Made by a program: the position numbers and the translations under genes. Positions 4,166-52,712 of a stretch of DNA of 64,000 bases are shown piece by piece. The DNA is from Pyrobaculum ferrireducens. GTDB taxonomy: Archaea; Thermoproteota; Thermoprotei; Thermoproteales; Thermoproteaceae. The stretch's first letter is position 1. The number at the start of each line of letters is the position of its first letter. The notes beneath the pieces were generated by a model. It ran no database searches and was not told where the DNA came from. It was given only the letters and a program-made list of their open reading frames with translations. The stretch spans positions 1,712,391 to 1,776,390 of the forward strand of contig NC_016645.1 in the NCBI RefSeq assembly GCF_000234805.1. Direction: 5' to 3'.

Positions 4166-5052
4166 TAAAGACGGTAAGTAAATACTTCTTCGGCAACATA
4201 TCTACAATCGAGATCGCTGTGGCTACTCTAATCGCCGGAGGCCATCTACTCCTCCTCGGCCCCGTTGGGGGCGGCAAGACAACTCTCGCCAAGGCCCTGG
4301 CGAGGGCGGTTGGGGGCTCCTTTGCACGGGTGCAGATGACTAACGAGACGTTGCCCTCGGACATCCTTGGATACGGGGTCTACGTCCAAGGCGAGATAAG
4401 AATTGTCAAGGGGCCTATTTTCAACAACGTGGTGCTAATAGACGAGATAAATAGGGGACCCCCTAGGACGCTCTCAGCCCTCATAGAGCCGATGCAGGAA
4501 CGGACCGTCACTATCGAGGGGGCGACGCTGAGGCTCCCCACCCCCCACATGGTGGTTGCCACCATGAACGTGACGGAGATAGCCACCGGCGCCACCGCCC
4601 CCCTACCCCTGGCGTTGCTAGATAGATTCACCGCGTCTCTACACGTAGATTACGTCGACCCTGCTAGGGAGAAGGAGGTTGTAAAAATGGCCGACTACTT
4701 AGACCAGCTAGACGGGAAGCCCCAGGCGACAACCCCCCTGACATTCGACATGGGGAAGGTATACGTAGCCGACGACGTAGTTGACTACATAATTAAACTA
4801 GTGGATGCGGTGAGGAGGGACGAGCGGGTGGCGGTGCCCCTTTCCACCAGGGCTCCCATTGCCCTGTACCGCCTCGCCAGAGCTATCGCGGTGCTGGACG
4901 GCAGAAACTACGTAATACCAGACGACGTGAAGAAAGCCGCGGTCCCCGCGCTGGCCCACAGAATTATTACAAAGCCCGAGTACTCCGACGTCGAGCCGGT
5001 AAGGATTGTGGAGGATGCCCTCCGGGAGGTGGAGCCTCCAACCCGTATATGA
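4141..5052 (+). CDS. MoxR-family AAA+ ATPase
   Basis: About 303 residues. Walker A is GPVGGGKTT, Walker B VVLIDEINRGPP, followed by the MoxR-typical LIEPMQERTVTIEG, sensor 1 region MVVATMNVTE, arginine finger region ALLDRFTASLHVDYVDP, and the lid domain with VPLSTRAPIALYRLARA. A TATA-like box at 4111-4121 lies inside the end of the upstream gene. GTG 4141 is 24 nt from its centre and gives the usual MoxR length, while GTG 4132 is also possible. MoxR ATPases act as chaperones with DUF58/vWA partners; the DUF58 gene follows directly and overlaps. Confidence 0.9.
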   Translation: MASSPRELVKTVSKYFFGNISTIEIAVATLIAGGHLLLLGPVGGGKTTLAKALARAVGGSFARVQMTNETLPSDILGYGVYVQGEIRIVKGPIFNNVVLIDEINRGPPRTLSALIEPMQERTVTIEGATLRLPTPHMVVATMNVTEIATGATAPLPLALLDRFTASLHVDYVDPAREKEVVKMADYLDQLDGKPQATTPLTFDMGKVYVADDVVDYIIKLVDAVRRDERVAVPLSTRAPIALYRLARAIAVLDGRNYVIPDDVKKAAVPALAHRIITKPEYSDVEPVRIVEDALREVEPPTRI

Positions 5053-6205
5053 GGCGGCTAGGCGGGCGGCCCCCCTCGCCTATCTAGCCATCGCCTGGCC
5101 AGAGTTCCCAGCCGCCGCGGCCGCGGTTTTGTTGCTGGCTTTGGAAAACACCTTGTTGCGGAGATTCCACACCCCGGCTGTGTTGCTTCACTACGCAGTG
5201 GCATCCCTATTGCCTCCCCCTAAGGCGCTTGCCCTGGCGGTTGCTCTGATACCACTGCTCCACTGGGCTAAGGTTGCGGATAACTATATGAGCTGGAGGG
5301 GCCACGCCGTTATTTTCACGGCCGCCGCCTTACTCAAGCCGCAACTCCTCCCAGCCCTTGTCTACACCCTCGCCGAGGCGGCGTGGTACTTTGCTAAATA
5401 CGCCAAGACGCAGCCGAGGGTGGAGGGGCCCCCCAAAATCGAGGCGGTGGCCGGGGCTCCTCTTTCATATAGGCTGAAGATTGCCACCGGCGCGCCTGCG
5501 GTTGTCCGCCTCCCCGACGGGAGGGAGGTGGAGGCGCTGGATGGCGAGGTCGAGGTGGAGGTTAAGACGAGGTTCGACGCCGCGGGGCTCTACACGCCGG
5601 AGGTTCAGGTGGTGTATGCAAACCCCACGCGGACCGTCCGGTTTAGGAAAGCGGTGAGGCACCCCCCGATATACGTGGCGCCTAGGTACCGACGCGCGGT
5701 GGAGCTAGGCGAGAAGATAATCGCCGGGGCTGTAGAGGAGGTGGCGGGGGCTAGGGAATACGTGCCGGGGGATCCCCTTAGGCGTCTGCACTGGAAGAAG
5801 ATGGCGAAGATACAGAAGCCTGTTGTTAAGCTTTTGGAGGGGCGCGCCGCGGGCGGCTTGAAAATTGCTGTACTGCTATACGCCACGTCCCCCAAGGCTC
5901 TTGACAGAGTGCTGGAGGCGGCGGCCTCCGCCGTGGCAACAGCCCTGGCCCGGTCAGATCACGTTGAGATATATGCAGTAACCCGACGAGGCGGCGAAAG
6001 AATCGTGGCTGAGCGGAGGACGTATAGAGAAGCTGTGGAGAGGCTTGTGTCGCTCGCCGAAGTTCTCCACGTCGAAGCCGCGGCGGCGCTGGACTACGCA
6101 AATGCCCTGCCAAAGGCTGAACTACCGCCGGCAGACATGGTGATAGGCGAGGCGGCTTTTGTAAAACCCCTCTGCAGGAGGGGGGCGGTCTGCCTCGCTA
6201 TTTGA
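5015..6205 (+). CDS. DUF58 domain membrane protein
   Basis: About 396 residues. Several hydrophobic segments occupy the first 130 residues. An Ig-like stretch follows, then the DUF58 signature REYVPGDPLRRLHWKKMAK near residue 250, and a vWA-like C-terminal fold. DUF58 proteins are the partners of MoxR ATPases; here the gene starts within the last codons of moxR. ATG 5015 is chosen; a TTG at 5006 is also in frame. Its 3' end overlaps by 8 nt the convergent DUF1616-C gene. Confidence 0.85.
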   Translation: MPSGRWSLQPVYEAARRAAPLAYLAIAWPEFPAAAAAVLLLALENTLLRRFHTPAVLLHYAVASLLPPPKALALAVALIPLLHWAKVADNYMSWRGHAVIFTAAALLKPQLLPALVYTLAEAAWYFAKYAKTQPRVEGPPKIEAVAGAPLSYRLKIATGAPAVVRLPDGREVEALDGEVEVEVKTRFDAAGLYTPEVQVVYANPTRTVRFRKAVRHPPIYVAPRYRRAVELGEKIIAGAVEEVAGAREYVPGDPLRRLHWKKMAKIQKPVVKLLEGRAAGGLKIAVLLYATSPKALDRVLEAAASAVATALARSDHVEIYAVTRRGGERIVAERRTYREAVERLVSLAEVLHVEAAAALDYANALPKAELPPADMVIGEAAFVKPLCRRGAVCLAI

Positions 6206-47104: not shown

Positions 47105-48112
47105 TTATGTAAAAAGATGTTCTAATTTGCCGCTTTTAGCCGCCTCCCTAATTTCGTGGGCTATCCTCTCCCCCATGTCCATTGGCCTGTCGAAGTAAAG
47201 CACTGAGTAGGGCGAGCCGTAGCCCATGTAGATATTGGTACCAGCCACGATCCTCCCCGAGAATTCGAAAACCACTATGGACATGTCGTCTTTTATTATC
47301 GATTCAAGGCAGTAGGGCCCGGCCATCCTACAGCCGACCATCTCCTCCACGGCCTTTGCGAACCTCTCGCCGTAGTCCTGTATTCTCGGCAGGAGGGACT
47401 CCCTGAGCACCAGGGGGAGGTTGCCCACCACTACAAACGTCGGCTCTGCCCAGCCGAAGGTCCTCCCATCCACGTTGCTCTCGTACCTAATATCTGCGCC
47501 AAATATCTCCACTCTAGAATAGACGGGGGAAGCGAAGTAGTGGTAATACGCAGGTACGCCGAAGAGATACTCCTGTACTATATACGGCTCGGACACAGAC
47601 GCGAGCTTGCGGGCGAGCTCCTCTCTGTTCCGCGCCACGAAGTACCCCCTACCCCCCTTGGCTCCGAAGAGCTTGACGATGACAGGCCCCTCGGCCTCCT
47701 CAGCCGAGCGGTAGACCTTCGGAATGGGAATCCCGGCCTTCTCCAGAAGAGACATCTTCTTAAACTGATCAGCCTCCCACCTCAACAGCTCTCTACACCC
47801 AAGCGTGGGCACCGGGGCCTCCAGCGCCTGCCTCCACCCCACGTACTCTACATAGGATCCGTGGGGGATCAACACCGCGTTGCTGGAAGCCAGCTTCTCA
47901 GCCGCCTTTCTAAAGTTAGAAAAATCCGCGGTCCACACCTCGTCGATAAAACTAAACTGGCGGTAGAAACGCGCCGTCTCCTCCCCCCTGGCCACCGCAA
48001 TAGTCCGGAAGCCGTACTTCTTAGCTCCTCTTAATATCTGGAGAGCTGTGTGGGAAGCCACAGTAGCTATGGCGAGGTGGTCGAGGTCGTATTTTTTTAG
48101 TATTTGCGACAT
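47105..48112 (-). CDS. purP: PurP-type FAICAR synthetase, second copy
   Basis: 335 residues, ATP-grasp. LAIATVASHTALQILRGAKK, FIDEVWTADFSNFR, LIPHGSYVEYVGWRQALEAP, PTLGCRELLRWEADQFKKMS, KLFGAKGGRGYFVARNREEL, FGVPAYYHYFASPVYSRVEI and FEFSGRIVAGTNIYMGYGSP are typical PurP. It is closer to the family pattern than the copy at 44931. Many hyperthermophilic archaea keep two PurP genes. ATG 48112; the upstream region is AT-rich. Confidence 0.9.
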   Translation of the reverse strand: MSQILKKYDLDHLAIATVASHTALQILRGAKKYGFRTIAVARGEETARFYRQFSFIDEVWTADFSNFRKAAEKLASSNAVLIPHGSYVEYVGWRQALEAPVPTLGCRELLRWEADQFKKMSLLEKAGIPIPKVYRSAEEAEGPVIVKLFGAKGGRGYFVARNREELARKLASVSEPYIVQEYLFGVPAYYHYFASPVYSRVEIFGADIRYESNVDGRTFGWAEPTFVVVGNLPLVLRESLLPRIQDYGERFAKAVEEMVGCRMAGPYCLESIIKDDMSIVVFEFSGRIVAGTNIYMGYGSPYSVLYFDRPMDMGERIAHEIREAAKSGKLEHLFT

Positions 48113-48292: not shown

Positions 48293-49297
48293 ATGGGGAA
48301 GTATAAGATTGTCGTCTTGTCGCCTGTTCCAGAGGCATTGTTAAGGATGTGGGCCGCGCCCATTGCGCAGAAATACGGCATATCTCTTGAAGATGTTGAG
48401 GTAGTCACATTCTTTGAACCCAATTATGATGAGATTAGCCGAGAGGTTGCCAATGCTGACGTTGTTGTTGGGGATTACACTTTCCGGTTTAAAATCGATG
48501 CGTCTCTCTGTGGAAAAATGGCGAAGGTAAAATTAATACAGCAACCAAGTACTGGCTACGACCATATAGATGTAGAGTCTTGTGCAAAGAGGGGGATACC
48601 CGTGGCCAACATCGGAGGGGCTAACGCCATTTCAGTCGCTGAGCACACCATAATGCTTGCACTTATGTTGTTGAAGAGGGCTGTATATGCCCATGAGAGG
48701 CTTGTTGGCGGCCAGTGGACTCAAGGCGAACTTATGAACACAATTGGAGAGATATATGGCAAGACATGGGGCGTCTTGGGCATGGGTAGGATAGGTAGAG
48801 AGGTAGCCGTTAGGGCTATGAGCTTCGGCGCCAAGGTGGTATACTACGATGTGGTTCGTAAGGAGGATGTGGAGAAGCTAGGCGTTGAGTACAGGCCATT
48901 TAACAGACTTCTGACAGAGAGCGACATTCTCAGTATACATGTACCGCTTACCCCGCAGACCAAGGGGATGATAGGCGAGCGCGAGCTTAGGATGATGAAG
49001 CCCAGCGCGGTGCTTATCAACGTATCACGTGGAGAGATTACAGACGAGGCGGCGCTTGCAAAGGCGGTTAGAGAAGGCTGGATCGCGGGGGTCGGGGTTG
49101 ATGTATTTTCTACAGAGCCGCCGCCGCATGACCACCCGCTTCTGCAAGCCGCCAGGGAGGGGTTTAACGTTATTGTGACACCTCACATAGCCGGCGCTAC
49201 TAATGAGGCTAGGTTGAGGATTATAAACGTCACTCTTGAAAATGTGTTTAAGGTACTCGCGGGTCTGAAACCGGATAACGTCGTAAATATACCATGA
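48293..49297 (+). CDS. D-isomer-specific 2-hydroxyacid dehydrogenase
   Basis: 334 residues. NAD site GVLGMGRIGREVAVRAMSFG; catalytic Arg in LINVSRGEITDEAALAKA, Glu in DVFSTEPPPHDHPLL and His in VTPHIAGATNEARL. IQQPSTGYDHIDVESC and ISVAEHTIMLALMLL are family-typical. Interconverts a 2-keto acid and a D-2-hydroxy acid. The stop overlaps the start of the TPP-enzyme gene by 4 nt. Codon choice is AT-richer than in the flanking genes. Confidence 0.92.
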   Translation: MGKYKIVVLSPVPEALLRMWAAPIAQKYGISLEDVEVVTFFEPNYDEISREVANADVVVGDYTFRFKIDASLCGKMAKVKLIQQPSTGYDHIDVESCAKRGIPVANIGGANAISVAEHTIMLALMLLKRAVYAHERLVGGQWTQGELMNTIGEIYGKTWGVLGMGRIGREVAVRAMSFGAKVVYYDVVRKEDVEKLGVEYRPFNRLLTESDILSIHVPLTPQTKGMIGERELRMMKPSAVLINVSRGEITDEAALAKAVREGWIAGVGVDVFSTEPPPHDHPLLQAAREGFNVIVTPHIAGATNEARLRIINVTLENVFKVLAGLKPDNVVNIP

Positions 49298-50943
49298 ATG
49301 TAGCGCAGGTTGTTGTTAAGTGTTTGGAACAGCTAGGCGTAAAGAGAATTTACGGATTGATAGGTACATCAATTTTAGACTTCATAGACGCAGTTAGAGA
49401 CAGCGGTTTAAGGTACATCTCAACGCGCCATGAGCAGGTCGCCGTGTCGATGGCAGATGCCGAAGGGAGGGTAACAGGCAAGCCAGGCGTGGCCGCCGTG
49501 CATGCAGGCCCTGGCTTTTTAAATTCTCTAATCTCGGTGGCAAACGCATACAAAGACGTGTCGCCTCTATTGTTAATATCTGGCGCAGTTAAAAGAAGGC
49601 TCGGCGGGCTGGATTCGTGGCTAGAGGTGCCGCAGAGGGAGATTATCAAGCCTATCGTCAAGGCCGCCTATAGAATCGACAAGCCGCTAGACGCCGCCAA
49701 GATAGTGGCAGAGGCCTATTCTATCGCCGCCTCACCACCACAGGGGCCGGTCTTTATCGAAGTTCCAGAAGATGTATGGAGTATGTCGTCTGAATACATG
49801 CCGTGCCGGGCAGAGGTGCGCCCCCCTCCACCAGTTCCGGTGGATGGAGTTAAGAAGGTGGCGGAATTGCTGTCGAGGGCTAGGAGAGTGGTTATTCTTG
49901 CTGGTGGTGGTGTGAATAGCGAGGAGGGGTCAAGGCTTTTGCTACAGCTAGCGGAGAGGTGGCGAATACCGGTGGCTGTGACTGGAAATGGACGCGGTGC
50001 CTTCCCCGAGGATCACCCACTTTTCCTGGGGCGGGCTGGGTTTGGTGGGGGTAACATAGTTGCGGATCACGCATTGGCTAGGGCTGATTTAGTATTGGCT
50101 GTGGGGGCGGGGCTCTCCGACACGACTACCTACGGCTACAACTACGTCCCTAGGGGGGACATCGTCGTGGTTAACCTCGACCCGCTGGCTGAAAAGAAGC
50201 CTATTCCCTACACCATATATTTCTACGGCGACGCGGTCGATTTCTTGAGGAAGCTCCTAGCTACTGATCTAAATATAAAACTTGATGAAGATTGGTACAG
50301 AGAATTAGAGGGGGTGAGGGCGAATTGGAACACGTTGCTGGAAGAGGCGCTTTCAAGAAAGTACCAAGGTTTTGTAAATCCCTCGAAGTTCTTCCACAAA
50401 CTTGACAAGGCGCTTCCCAGGGAAATTGTAATGATTGGCGGGCAAGGATTGCACATAGTCTACACCTTCAGCTTCGTGAGGATAAGAGCGGTGCGGGGAT
50501 ACCTTGCAGCCTTTAACCTAGGGGCTATGGGCTTCGCCTTCCCGGCGGCGCTGGGGGCTAAACTGGCGATGCCAGAGCGCGATGTATATGCCGTGGTGGG
50601 CGACGGCGAGTTTATGATGACTGTGCAAGATCTAGAGACGGCGGTTAGGGAGAAGATTCCGGTAAAGGTTATAATCGTAAACGATAATTCTTACAGGGTC
50701 CTTTACGCTAGGCAAAAGGCGCAGAAAATGGGCAGAGTCTTCGGCACGCTCCACACAAATCCAGATTTTGTAAAACTAACAGATGCATTTGGTGTAGAGG
50801 CCATGTCGATAAACTCAGACGAAGAGATACCCAAAGCCGTGAAATATATCACGGAAAAAAGCGAAGGACCCAGAGTTCTTGAAATTAAGATCCATCCAGA
50901 CGATTTACCTCCAATGAATATAGAGGCCGCGTTGAGATTTTAA
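49294..50943 (+). CDS. Acetolactate synthase-like TPP-dependent enzyme
   Basis: 549 residues. The TPP-activating Glu is in RHEQVAVSMADAEGR; VHAGPGFLNSLISVANAY, then a central domain VILAGGGVNSEEG, then the TPP motif VVGDGEFMMTVQDLETAVRE ending in IIVNDNSY (GDG-x~26-NDN). The family includes acetolactate synthase, oxalyl-CoA, benzoylformate and sulfopyruvate decarboxylases. Coupling with a 2-hydroxyacid dehydrogenase suggests a 2-keto acid substrate. No regulatory small subunit gene is nearby, so a catabolic or specialised enzyme is likelier than IlvB. Confidence 0.85.
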   Translation: MNVAQVVVKCLEQLGVKRIYGLIGTSILDFIDAVRDSGLRYISTRHEQVAVSMADAEGRVTGKPGVAAVHAGPGFLNSLISVANAYKDVSPLLLISGAVKRRLGGLDSWLEVPQREIIKPIVKAAYRIDKPLDAAKIVAEAYSIAASPPQGPVFIEVPEDVWSMSSEYMPCRAEVRPPPPVPVDGVKKVAELLSRARRVVILAGGGVNSEEGSRLLLQLAERWRIPVAVTGNGRGAFPEDHPLFLGRAGFGGGNIVADHALARADLVLAVGAGLSDTTTYGYNYVPRGDIVVVNLDPLAEKKPIPYTIYFYGDAVDFLRKLLATDLNIKLDEDWYRELEGVRANWNTLLEEALSRKYQGFVNPSKFFHKLDKALPREIVMIGGQGLHIVYTFSFVRIRAVRGYLAAFNLGAMGFAFPAALGAKLAMPERDVYAVVGDGEFMMTVQDLETAVREKIPVKVIIVNDNSYRVLYARQKAQKMGRVFGTLHTNPDFVKLTDAFGVEAMSINSDEEIPKAVKYITEKSEGPRVLEIKIHPDDLPPMNIEAALRF

Positions 50944-50962
50944 TACCTGACATTTAACATCC

Positions 50963-51481
50963 ATGTTTTTTGGCAGACAGTACAGCGAGGAGGAGCTACG
51001 GCTTATCCGCTGTATTGAGGAGGTGGTGGCGGGCTCGGGGGGAGGTAGCGACGACAGGTGCCTCAGGGCCGCCGCCGAGTATCTGTGCCGGAAGAGGCTT
51101 GGCGAGGCGGCGTCGCTGGACAAGATAGCGGCTAGACACGGAGTTCAGCTACTCTGCGTCTATAGGTGGTACAGCAAGCTTTTCCAGATGGGGTACAGAT
51201 ACCCCAGAGACGAATTTGAACACCACCTAGAGACGGTGAGGAAGATCTACGGGGAGGCGGTAGCCGAGGAGGTGAGGAGGCTGTACGAATTTCTAAAGTC
51301 TAAGGGCGCCGTCCAGGGCCTGAAGCCTGGCGGCGTCGTGGCCGCCCTCCTGTACTACGCCGCTAAGAAACACCGCTTTAAATACGACGTGGTGAAGGCG
51401 GCGTATGAATTCGACACGTATCCAGAGACCGTGGAGAAAAACATAGTCCTCTTCCAGTGGTACATCCACGGAATCATCTAG
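50963..51481 (+). CDS. TFB-like protein with two cyclin folds
   Basis: 172 residues. Two helical repeats resemble the TFB/TFIIB core: repeat 1 with LRAAAEYLCRKRLGEAASLD-KIAARHGVQLLCVYRWYSKL, repeat 2 with GVVAALLYYAAKKHRFKYDV-VKAAYEFDTYPETVEKNI. The zinc ribbon and B-finger of genuine TFB are absent. It might be a truncated TFB paralogue that binds promoter DNA or TBP, or another cyclin-fold protein. ATG 50963 follows a TATA-like ATTTTAATA by about 23 nt. Overlaps the convergent serpin gene by 8 nt. Confidence 0.55.
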   Translation: MFFGRQYSEEELRLIRCIEEVVAGSGGGSDDRCLRAAAEYLCRKRLGEAASLDKIAARHGVQLLCVYRWYSKLFQMGYRYPRDEFEHHLETVRKIYGEAVAEEVRRLYEFLKSKGAVQGLKPGGVVAALLYYAAKKHRFKYDVVKAAYEFDTYPETVEKNIVLFQWYIHGII

Positions 51482-52712
51482 GGTCGACCACGTGGCCTAT
51501 GAAGTATATAGTCTTCGTGGACCTGTCGGCCAGCACGAATATAAACGGCTTATCTATAACGACGTGGCGGCCTCCCGTCTTGGCGCAGATAGGCTTCATA
51601 ACTACCCCCGTGGCCGCGCCCGCCACGACGCCGTTTTCGTCAGCCTTTATGAACGCGCCGTGGAAAACGTCGTCGATGTAGAGCCCCCCGTATTTCTTCA
51701 CGTCCACCATATGTGAGAAGTCCGCCTTGCCGGGGCTGAAGGCGTCCGTGACGCCCATGTCCATGAGGAGGGGCTTGATTGACTGCTTAAACTCGGCCTT
51801 GAAGAGGGGCATCTTCACACTCACCACCTCGTCTGGTAGCGTGGAGACGGCTTCTAGTAGCTTCTCGAAAGTCAGCGTCTCCACATATCTACGGAAATCC
51901 ACAGGCATGACTATGTACATGGCGACGTCTGTATCTCTGAAGAGCAACTCGACGACAACAACGTCTTCGGAGGCCCTCCCCCTAAGAGAGGGGTCACTAC
52001 AGCTCCCCAGACTCAGAGACATGTACTCCACGGGGCCGACCCCTCCAAACTCGGCCTTGCCCACTCTCACAAAACTCTCGGGCCACCAGCTCCCGTTGAA
52101 AAACAGCGTAGACACCAGCACTGCGTGCGGCACCCAACCGACTGGGTAGTCCTCTGGGATTAAGCCCTTGACTAGGCCCCTGGTCCTCTCCTCAATCCAC
52201 TTGTTGATATGCCTCAGAGCCCCCTTGACATCTCTTTTGAAATCCACCCTCCTCACCTCGGCGCCGATGCACCTCAGCCTCGACAAGTAGCTATCCGTAA
52301 CCGGCATATCCGCCTGGAGCCAAGCGGCCACGCCCTCCTCCACACCCCGTCCCGCCCTCGGCAACACACAGGAATCTTCGCCGAATCCCATCACCCTCTT
52401 GATCTCCTCCCTCGTGGCGCCGGAGGCCCCGGCGTACGCCATGGCAAAAGCCTTGTAGACTGTGTACGGCGAGATGACGAGATTCCTGTCCATCTCCTGC
52501 AGTGCAATCCTCCTGTACAGCTCAACGGCGAAGCGGCCGTAGGAGCTGTAGTTCACAACGCCGCCCCTCTCCGTTAGGTTGAGCGGGGGGCTCCCCGTCG
52601 GGGGCTCCGCGGGCGGGGCCTCGGAGCCGCCCTGTGCGGCGAGGTAAACCAGGTAGAGCGCCACTGCGATGACCGCCGCCGTCGCTATCGCCGTCAGCAC
52701 CGCGATCTTCAT
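51474..52712 (-). CDS. Serpin (serine protease inhibitor)
   Basis: 412 residues. N-terminal membrane anchor/signal (4-26) and a short low-complexity linker, then the serpin fold: NLVISPYTVYKAFAMAYAGA, LVSTLFFNGSWWPESF, MPLFKAEFKQSIKPLLMDMG, DFSHMVDVKKYGGLYIDDVF. The hinge is ADENGVVAGAATGVVM, with small residues needed for loop insertion. Counting from the hinge puts P1 near the Ile of KPICAKTGG. It resembles aeropin of P. aerophilum. Four cysteines after the anchor allow a disulfide. ATG 52712 is 24 nt from a TATA-like TATTAAAG. Confidence 0.93.
   Translation of the reverse strand: MKIAVLTAIATAAVIAVALYLVYLAAQGGSEAPPAEPPTGSPPLNLTERGGVVNYSSYGRFAVELYRRIALQEMDRNLVISPYTVYKAFAMAYAGASGATREEIKRVMGFGEDSCVLPRAGRGVEEGVAAWLQADMPVTDSYLSRLRCIGAEVRRVDFKRDVKGALRHINKWIEERTRGLVKGLIPEDYPVGWVPHAVLVSTLFFNGSWWPESFVRVGKAEFGGVGPVEYMSLSLGSCSDPSLRGRASEDVVVVELLFRDTDVAMYIVMPVDFRRYVETLTFEKLLEAVSTLPDEVVSVKMPLFKAEFKQSIKPLLMDMGVTDAFSPGKADFSHMVDVKKYGGLYIDDVFHGAFIKADENGVVAGAATGVVMKPICAKTGGRHVVIDKPFIFVLADRSTKTIYFIGHVVDPR

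Follow-up and report, generated by a model that had tools for sequence, protein, structure and literature searches.

Paralogues of archaeal TFB are usually viewed as alternative initiation factors or, in the case of TFB3, as an activator that works in trans. TFB3 is reported to lack one cyclin fold (PMC3189178). The initial annotation of the locus studied here proposed a small protein that would compete with TFB at promoters, a mode of control that it considered not well described in crenarchaea. That statement holds in part: two reports on Sulfolobus do describe a TFS4 inhibitor (PMC5715097) and a trans-acting TFB3 (PMC7289017), whereas a description of a ribbon-less archaeal TFB was not found in the literature that we searched, which left out most subscription papers.

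We analysed a 64,000-nucleotide stretch of DNA (the window) from a Pyrobaculum genome of 2.47 Mb in one contig. The open reading frame under study encodes, from an ATG start as first described, a protein of 172 aa that we call M2 (Table 1). The sequence, profile and predicted fold all bear out the central claim made for it, namely that it carries two TFB-like cyclin repeats without the parts that recruit polymerase.

Table 1. Coordinates of M2, its parts and its neighbours in the window, and of ribbon-less TFB-type genes at loci (L) of other genomes (G)
Feature	Position	Strand	Evidence or remark
purP-like ligase (formate--phosphoribosylaminoimidazolecarboxamide ligase)	47105..48112	-	NCBIfam matches under curated cut-offs
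Acetolactate-synthase-like TPP enzyme	49294..50943	+	Upstream neighbour, 19-base gap to M2
TATA-like box ATTTTAATA	50937..50945	+	Begins 26 bases 5' of M2 start codon; overlaps end of upstream gene
M2 gene (ribbon-less TFB-core-like protein)	50963..51481	+	ORF; homologues; dN/dS
M2 cyclin repeat 1, aa 9-75, four helices	50987..51187	+	AlphaFold helices H9-24, H32-45, H52-58, H63-75; TFB-core alignment
Second helix of repeat-1 helix-turn-helix, aa 63-75	51149..51187	+	Alignment; L63 L64 in place of TFB basic pair
M2 cyclin repeat 2, aa 84-168, five helices	51212..51466	+	Holds PF00382 match; Pfam, AlphaFold, alignment
Second helix of repeat-2 helix-turn-helix, aa 154-168 (BRE-reading helix in TFB)	51422..51466	+	11/15 invariant; R286-equivalent E/V/A
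Serpin gene	51474..52712	-	Convergent; overlaps M2 3' end by 8 bases
Ribbon-less TFB core, G050, 214 aa	L112:1249-1893	-	1-2 bases behind canonical tfb
Ribbon-less TFB core, G053, 210 aa	L113:1776-2408	+	1-2 bases behind canonical tfb
Ribbon-less TFB-like protein, G047, 239 aa	L114:1143-1862	+	
Ribbon-less TFB-like protein, G018, first of three copies	L116:4682-5128	-	
Ribbon-less TFB-like protein, G018, second copy	L117:2030-2386	+	
Ribbon-less TFB-like protein, G018, third copy	L118 ~4338-5111	-	

M2 lacks the N-terminal zinc ribbon by which a TFB docks onto RNA polymerase. The ribbon family PF08271 found no Pfam match in any of the six members of the M2 family, while both controls (a Pyrobaculum TFB3 and a canonical TFB) were matched. 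CxxC pairs are likewise absent from all six, and the four cysteines of M2 are all single. Eight residues separate the start from the first core helix; the B-reader and B-linker are absent. Upstream of the ATG, the frame remains open for at most four more codons (176 aa), and therefore no zinc ribbon is concealed by a wrong start. We rejected a missed start on these grounds together with the position of a TATA-like run, at -26 in five of the six genomes and at -29 in the other. The four cysteines themselves (aa 17, 33, 42 and 65) are invariant across the family and lie within repeat 1, where they may form disulphides or bind metal.

Sequence comparisons connect the remaining protein to the TFB core. 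The sole Pfam match of M2 was the TFIIB repeat PF00382, at aa 98-140 (E 0.0014; 19.1 bits, under the 23.6 cut-off), and this family matched five of the six members at E up to 0.1. HTH_28 matched weakly in two of the six, lying over the repeat-1 helix-turn-helix in the two displayed. A phmmer search of the PDB with M2 ranked the archaeal TFB cores 1ais/1d3u first (E 0.005), and a profile of all six members recovered divergent ribbon-bearing TFBs elsewhere (E 1.3e-9 to 5.1e-5). When we compared the six-member alignment with Pyrobaculum TFB alignments by hhalign, the E-values were 2.8e-5 for TFB3 (probability 74%), 7e-4 for TFB1 (26%) and 0.003 for TFB2 (10%); the lowest among ten controls, one reversal and nine column shuffles with the same three alignments, was 0.017. 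M2 is homologous to the TFB core, with two cyclin repeats and neither zinc ribbon nor B-reader.

Within the genus, a canonical TFB is present in all 11 genomes, a divergent TFB also occurs, and a TFB3-type protein (ribbon plus one cyclin fold) was read in 10 of the 11. M2 is not a member of this TFB3 family, since it has two repeats and no ribbon, and the window's own genome carries a separate TFB3 gene (L051). One other genome (G002) holds two intact TFB3-type genes and a third, frameshifted copy (loci L047, L052 and L053, the last at G002:C1 ~21.7-22.2 kb).

The predicted structure agrees with this assignment. An AlphaFold model of M2, built on a two-sequence alignment, contains nine helices (4+5; pLDDT 86, pTM 0.58). 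Comparison with the TFB core, the check that the initial annotation had called for, found cyclin folds: the top Foldseek matches were 1ais_B and 1d3u_B (TMq 0.73 and 0.70, E 1.9e-4), and VIA-align superposed the model on the archaeal TFB core over 164 residues at 3.1 A (Z 15.5). The repeats are two in number and of TFB type, as proposed, but the first has four helices rather than five, lacking one of the N-terminal pair seen in a TFB repeat. TFB, TFIIB and Brf proteins occupy the top structural ranks and cyclins fall lower, at ~13 A rmsd with both repeats aligned, so we rejected a eukaryotic-type cyclin; in a viral structure library, TFIIB-like proteins also came first. A second model, of the homologue from Pyrobaculum sp. 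WP30, repeats the nine helices and again matches TFB-family structures best (pLDDT 84), but with a TMq of just 0.49 and an rmsd of ~10-12 A. Its inter-repeat arrangement differs from that of the M2 model, and the relative placement of the repeats is therefore not settled.

We then compared the residues by which a TFB contacts TBP and the BRE, using an alignment of 13 TFB1-type cores (11 from Pyrobaculum, with those of G050 and G053), 8 TFB2 cores (from the 11 genomes, only those with retrieved loci), 4 other ribbon-less cores and the 6 members of the M2 family. The equivalent of human R286, the BRE-reading arginine of TFIIB, is basic in all 25 other cores but is Glu, Val or Ala throughout the M2 family. 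The same division was found at the K188-equivalent (25/25 basic versus Leu or Phe in all six), at the basic residue that comes last in the BRE helix (25/25 versus no Lys or Arg), at the GKDP lysine position (25/25 versus 0/6) and at the TQK lysine (24/24, with one gap, versus 0/6). In repeat 1, a charged contact pair is replaced by hydrophobic residues in all six (L63/L64, or I or F). Only the R169-equivalent remains basic both in the 25 cores and in all M2 members, as K44. Six further positions (G153, R154, K189, R193, and the N and R after R286) were scored but unused; they vary among TFB groups.

Read from the alignment, this pattern speaks against TFB-like docking of M2 on TBP-TATA-BRE. 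Because the R169-equivalent stays basic, M2 may retain some TBP contact. Moreover, M2 shares only ~17% identity over aligned columns with Pyrobaculum TFB1/TFB cores, so its contact columns may be one off; the invariant K121 and K159 are immediate neighbours of basic positions that M2 has lost, and might make up for them in part.

M2 is a real gene under purifying selection. Its dN/dS with the nearest relative is 0.088, by which we rejected an artefact or pseudogene; across the family, the ratio could be computed for 7 of 15 pairs (0.088 to 0.264), the other 8 being without a dS estimate. The protein has 64 invariant positions among its 172, and helix 154-168 tops all helices (p 0.003 uncorrected, ~0.03 after correction for nine helices). 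As the most conserved helix, it is probably under strong selection for some role.

The family occurs in 6 of the 11 Pyrobaculum genomes including the window's own, with homologues 57-97% identical to M2 in the other five; in one genome counted as lacking it (G007) the contig ends at purP, and absence there is not judgeable. A scan of genome contigs returned one relative, that of Pyrobaculum sp. WP30 (CP012158.1). Viral contigs and plasmids held no relative and the sole phage match had an E of 0.8, and we set aside a virus or plasmid origin. In a sample of 300 genomes from the phylum, the M2 profile gave matches at E 1e-4 or better in 11. Six are the known M2 genomes; the other five matches are larger TFB-like proteins of other families, four with both N-terminal CxxC pairs and the fifth (L122) with a single pair in its called ORF. 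Strict orthologues outside Pyrobaculum were not found in these 300 genomes with this profile. A tree built from two proteins places genomes with M2 in each of its two main groups and pairs G002, which lacks M2, with G006, which has it, at low support; the distribution fits vertical descent with losses.

The purP gene is the conserved 5'-side anchor of M2 in all six genomes. It is directly divergent from M2 in three (G006, G004 and G009), and a dehydrogenase/TPP-enzyme pair lies between the two in the other three (G000, G003 and G008). A serpin gene is the convergent neighbour in four of the six. Two genomes (G002 and G010) have the purP-dehydrogenase-TPP stretch with M2 absent, and in two more (G005 and G001) purP is there and M2 was not found in the stretch. 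The purP and serpin neighbours give no hint of a regulon for M2. Upstream of the start codon, all six genomes have an A/T run of at least six bases at -33 to -20; across the window, 5.7% of all 14-base stretches hold such a run. The position of this interval was chosen after inspecting the sequences. The run points to a leaderless mRNA made from a promoter of M2's own. Of the TPP-enzyme gene, G006 has lost all but the last 57 bases (L055:7778-7834; 89% identity), which carry the TATA-like box; the remnant was perhaps kept because it holds the promoter of the gene that follows.

Elsewhere in Thermoproteia, at least four genomes (G050, G053, G047 and G018) also encode ribbon-less TFB-type proteins. 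These have PF00382 repeats and no ribbon match, measure 148-239 aa as scanned, and are not orthologous to M2 by position. The next gene in G050 and G053 is nucleotidyltransferase-like, a name given by eye. All five basic contact positions are kept in G050, G053 and G047, and four, with a gap, in G018. With their contacts mostly kept, these proteins are better candidates for TFB competitors than M2.

We regard it as an even call that M2 is a neofunctionalised TFB core that acts as a TBP-independent regulator. A TFB paralogue would have been cut down to two cyclin repeats before it was neofunctionalised. M2 would not recruit RNA polymerase, because the ribbon is absent, and would not dock in TFB style on TBP-TATA-BRE, because the BRE- and TBP-contact positions are changed. 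Its conserved second helix-turn-helix could then recognise another DNA site, or a protein, making M2 a small regulator, while the hydrophobic face left by the replaced contact residues of repeat 1 may form a partner or dimer surface. The competitor proposed by the initial annotation would instead take the place of TFB on TBP-TATA-BRE and block polymerase recruitment as a dominant-negative TFB, for which a TFB core fold without the recruiting ribbon is well suited and the basic R169-equivalent is favourable. This now seems unlikely: the K188- and R286-equivalents, basic in every other core, and three more basic positions carry no Lys or Arg in any M2 member, so that the proposal is left unsupported and weakened. 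In human TFIIB, R169E lowers TBP binding and R169E/K188E lowers it more (PMC6004067). Furthermore, the other ribbon-less cores retain their contact residues, and the contact loss in M2 is therefore no by-product of ribbon loss.

The hydrophobic residues that replace the charged contact pair in repeat 1 are equally what one would look for if M2 bound TFB, TFB3 or RNA polymerase through this face and modulated initiation without touching promoter DNA. All six M2 genomes do carry TFB3, and Sulfolobus TFB3 appears to act in trans with canonical TFB (PMC7289017). However, TFB3 is found across the genus whether or not M2 is present, the co-occurrence therefore says little, and we think this arrangement quite improbable. 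A non-transcriptional cyclin-fold protein, such as a scaffold, or a regulator of purine metabolism or of a neighbouring pathway, would be in keeping with a gene that stays near purP and often by the serpin gene, and with the cyclin folds of non-TFB proteins that Foldseek lists lower. It is highly doubtful when the best sequence and fold matches are TFB/TFIIB rather than cyclins and both helix-turn-helix elements are retained.

M2 keeps only the promoter-binding half of a TFB, with the charged contacts replaced, which suggests that the TFB core is reusable as a stand-alone module; the protein also offers a natural test of the role of each TFB contact. More broadly, we tentatively propose, as a possibility we would not yet expect to hold, that ribbon-less TFB cores form a recurring, undescribed class of regulators in Thermoproteia, in which the tfb-adjacent members with contacts would be natural competitors and the Pyrobaculum lineage without TBP/BRE contacts an independent DNA-binding regulator. 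The tandem of tfb and ribbon-less tfb in two genomes of another family makes the competition idea directly testable.

Among known systems, the core of Pyrococcus woesei TFB (1AIS/1D3U) is the best match in both sequence and structure and orders its two cyclin repeats as M2 does; M2 differs from this TFB by lacking the zinc ribbon, reader and linker, by a repeat 1 that is one helix shorter and by changed contacts. The TFB3 proteins of Sulfolobus, Thermoproteus and Pyrobaculum resemble M2 as truncated TFB paralogues that stand alongside a canonical TFB, but the truncation is opposite, Pyrobaculum TFB3 keeping the ribbon and M2 the two cyclin folds. Plant AtBRF5, too, belongs to the TFIIB family and has no N-terminal zinc domain, although this eukaryotic protein has a linker and one cyclin repeat (PMC7865254). 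Sulfolobus solfataricus TFS4 is a TFIIS-type protein of unrelated fold that inhibits RNA polymerase, and it provides a precedent for a crenarchaeal general-factor paralogue with a changed role (PMC5715097).
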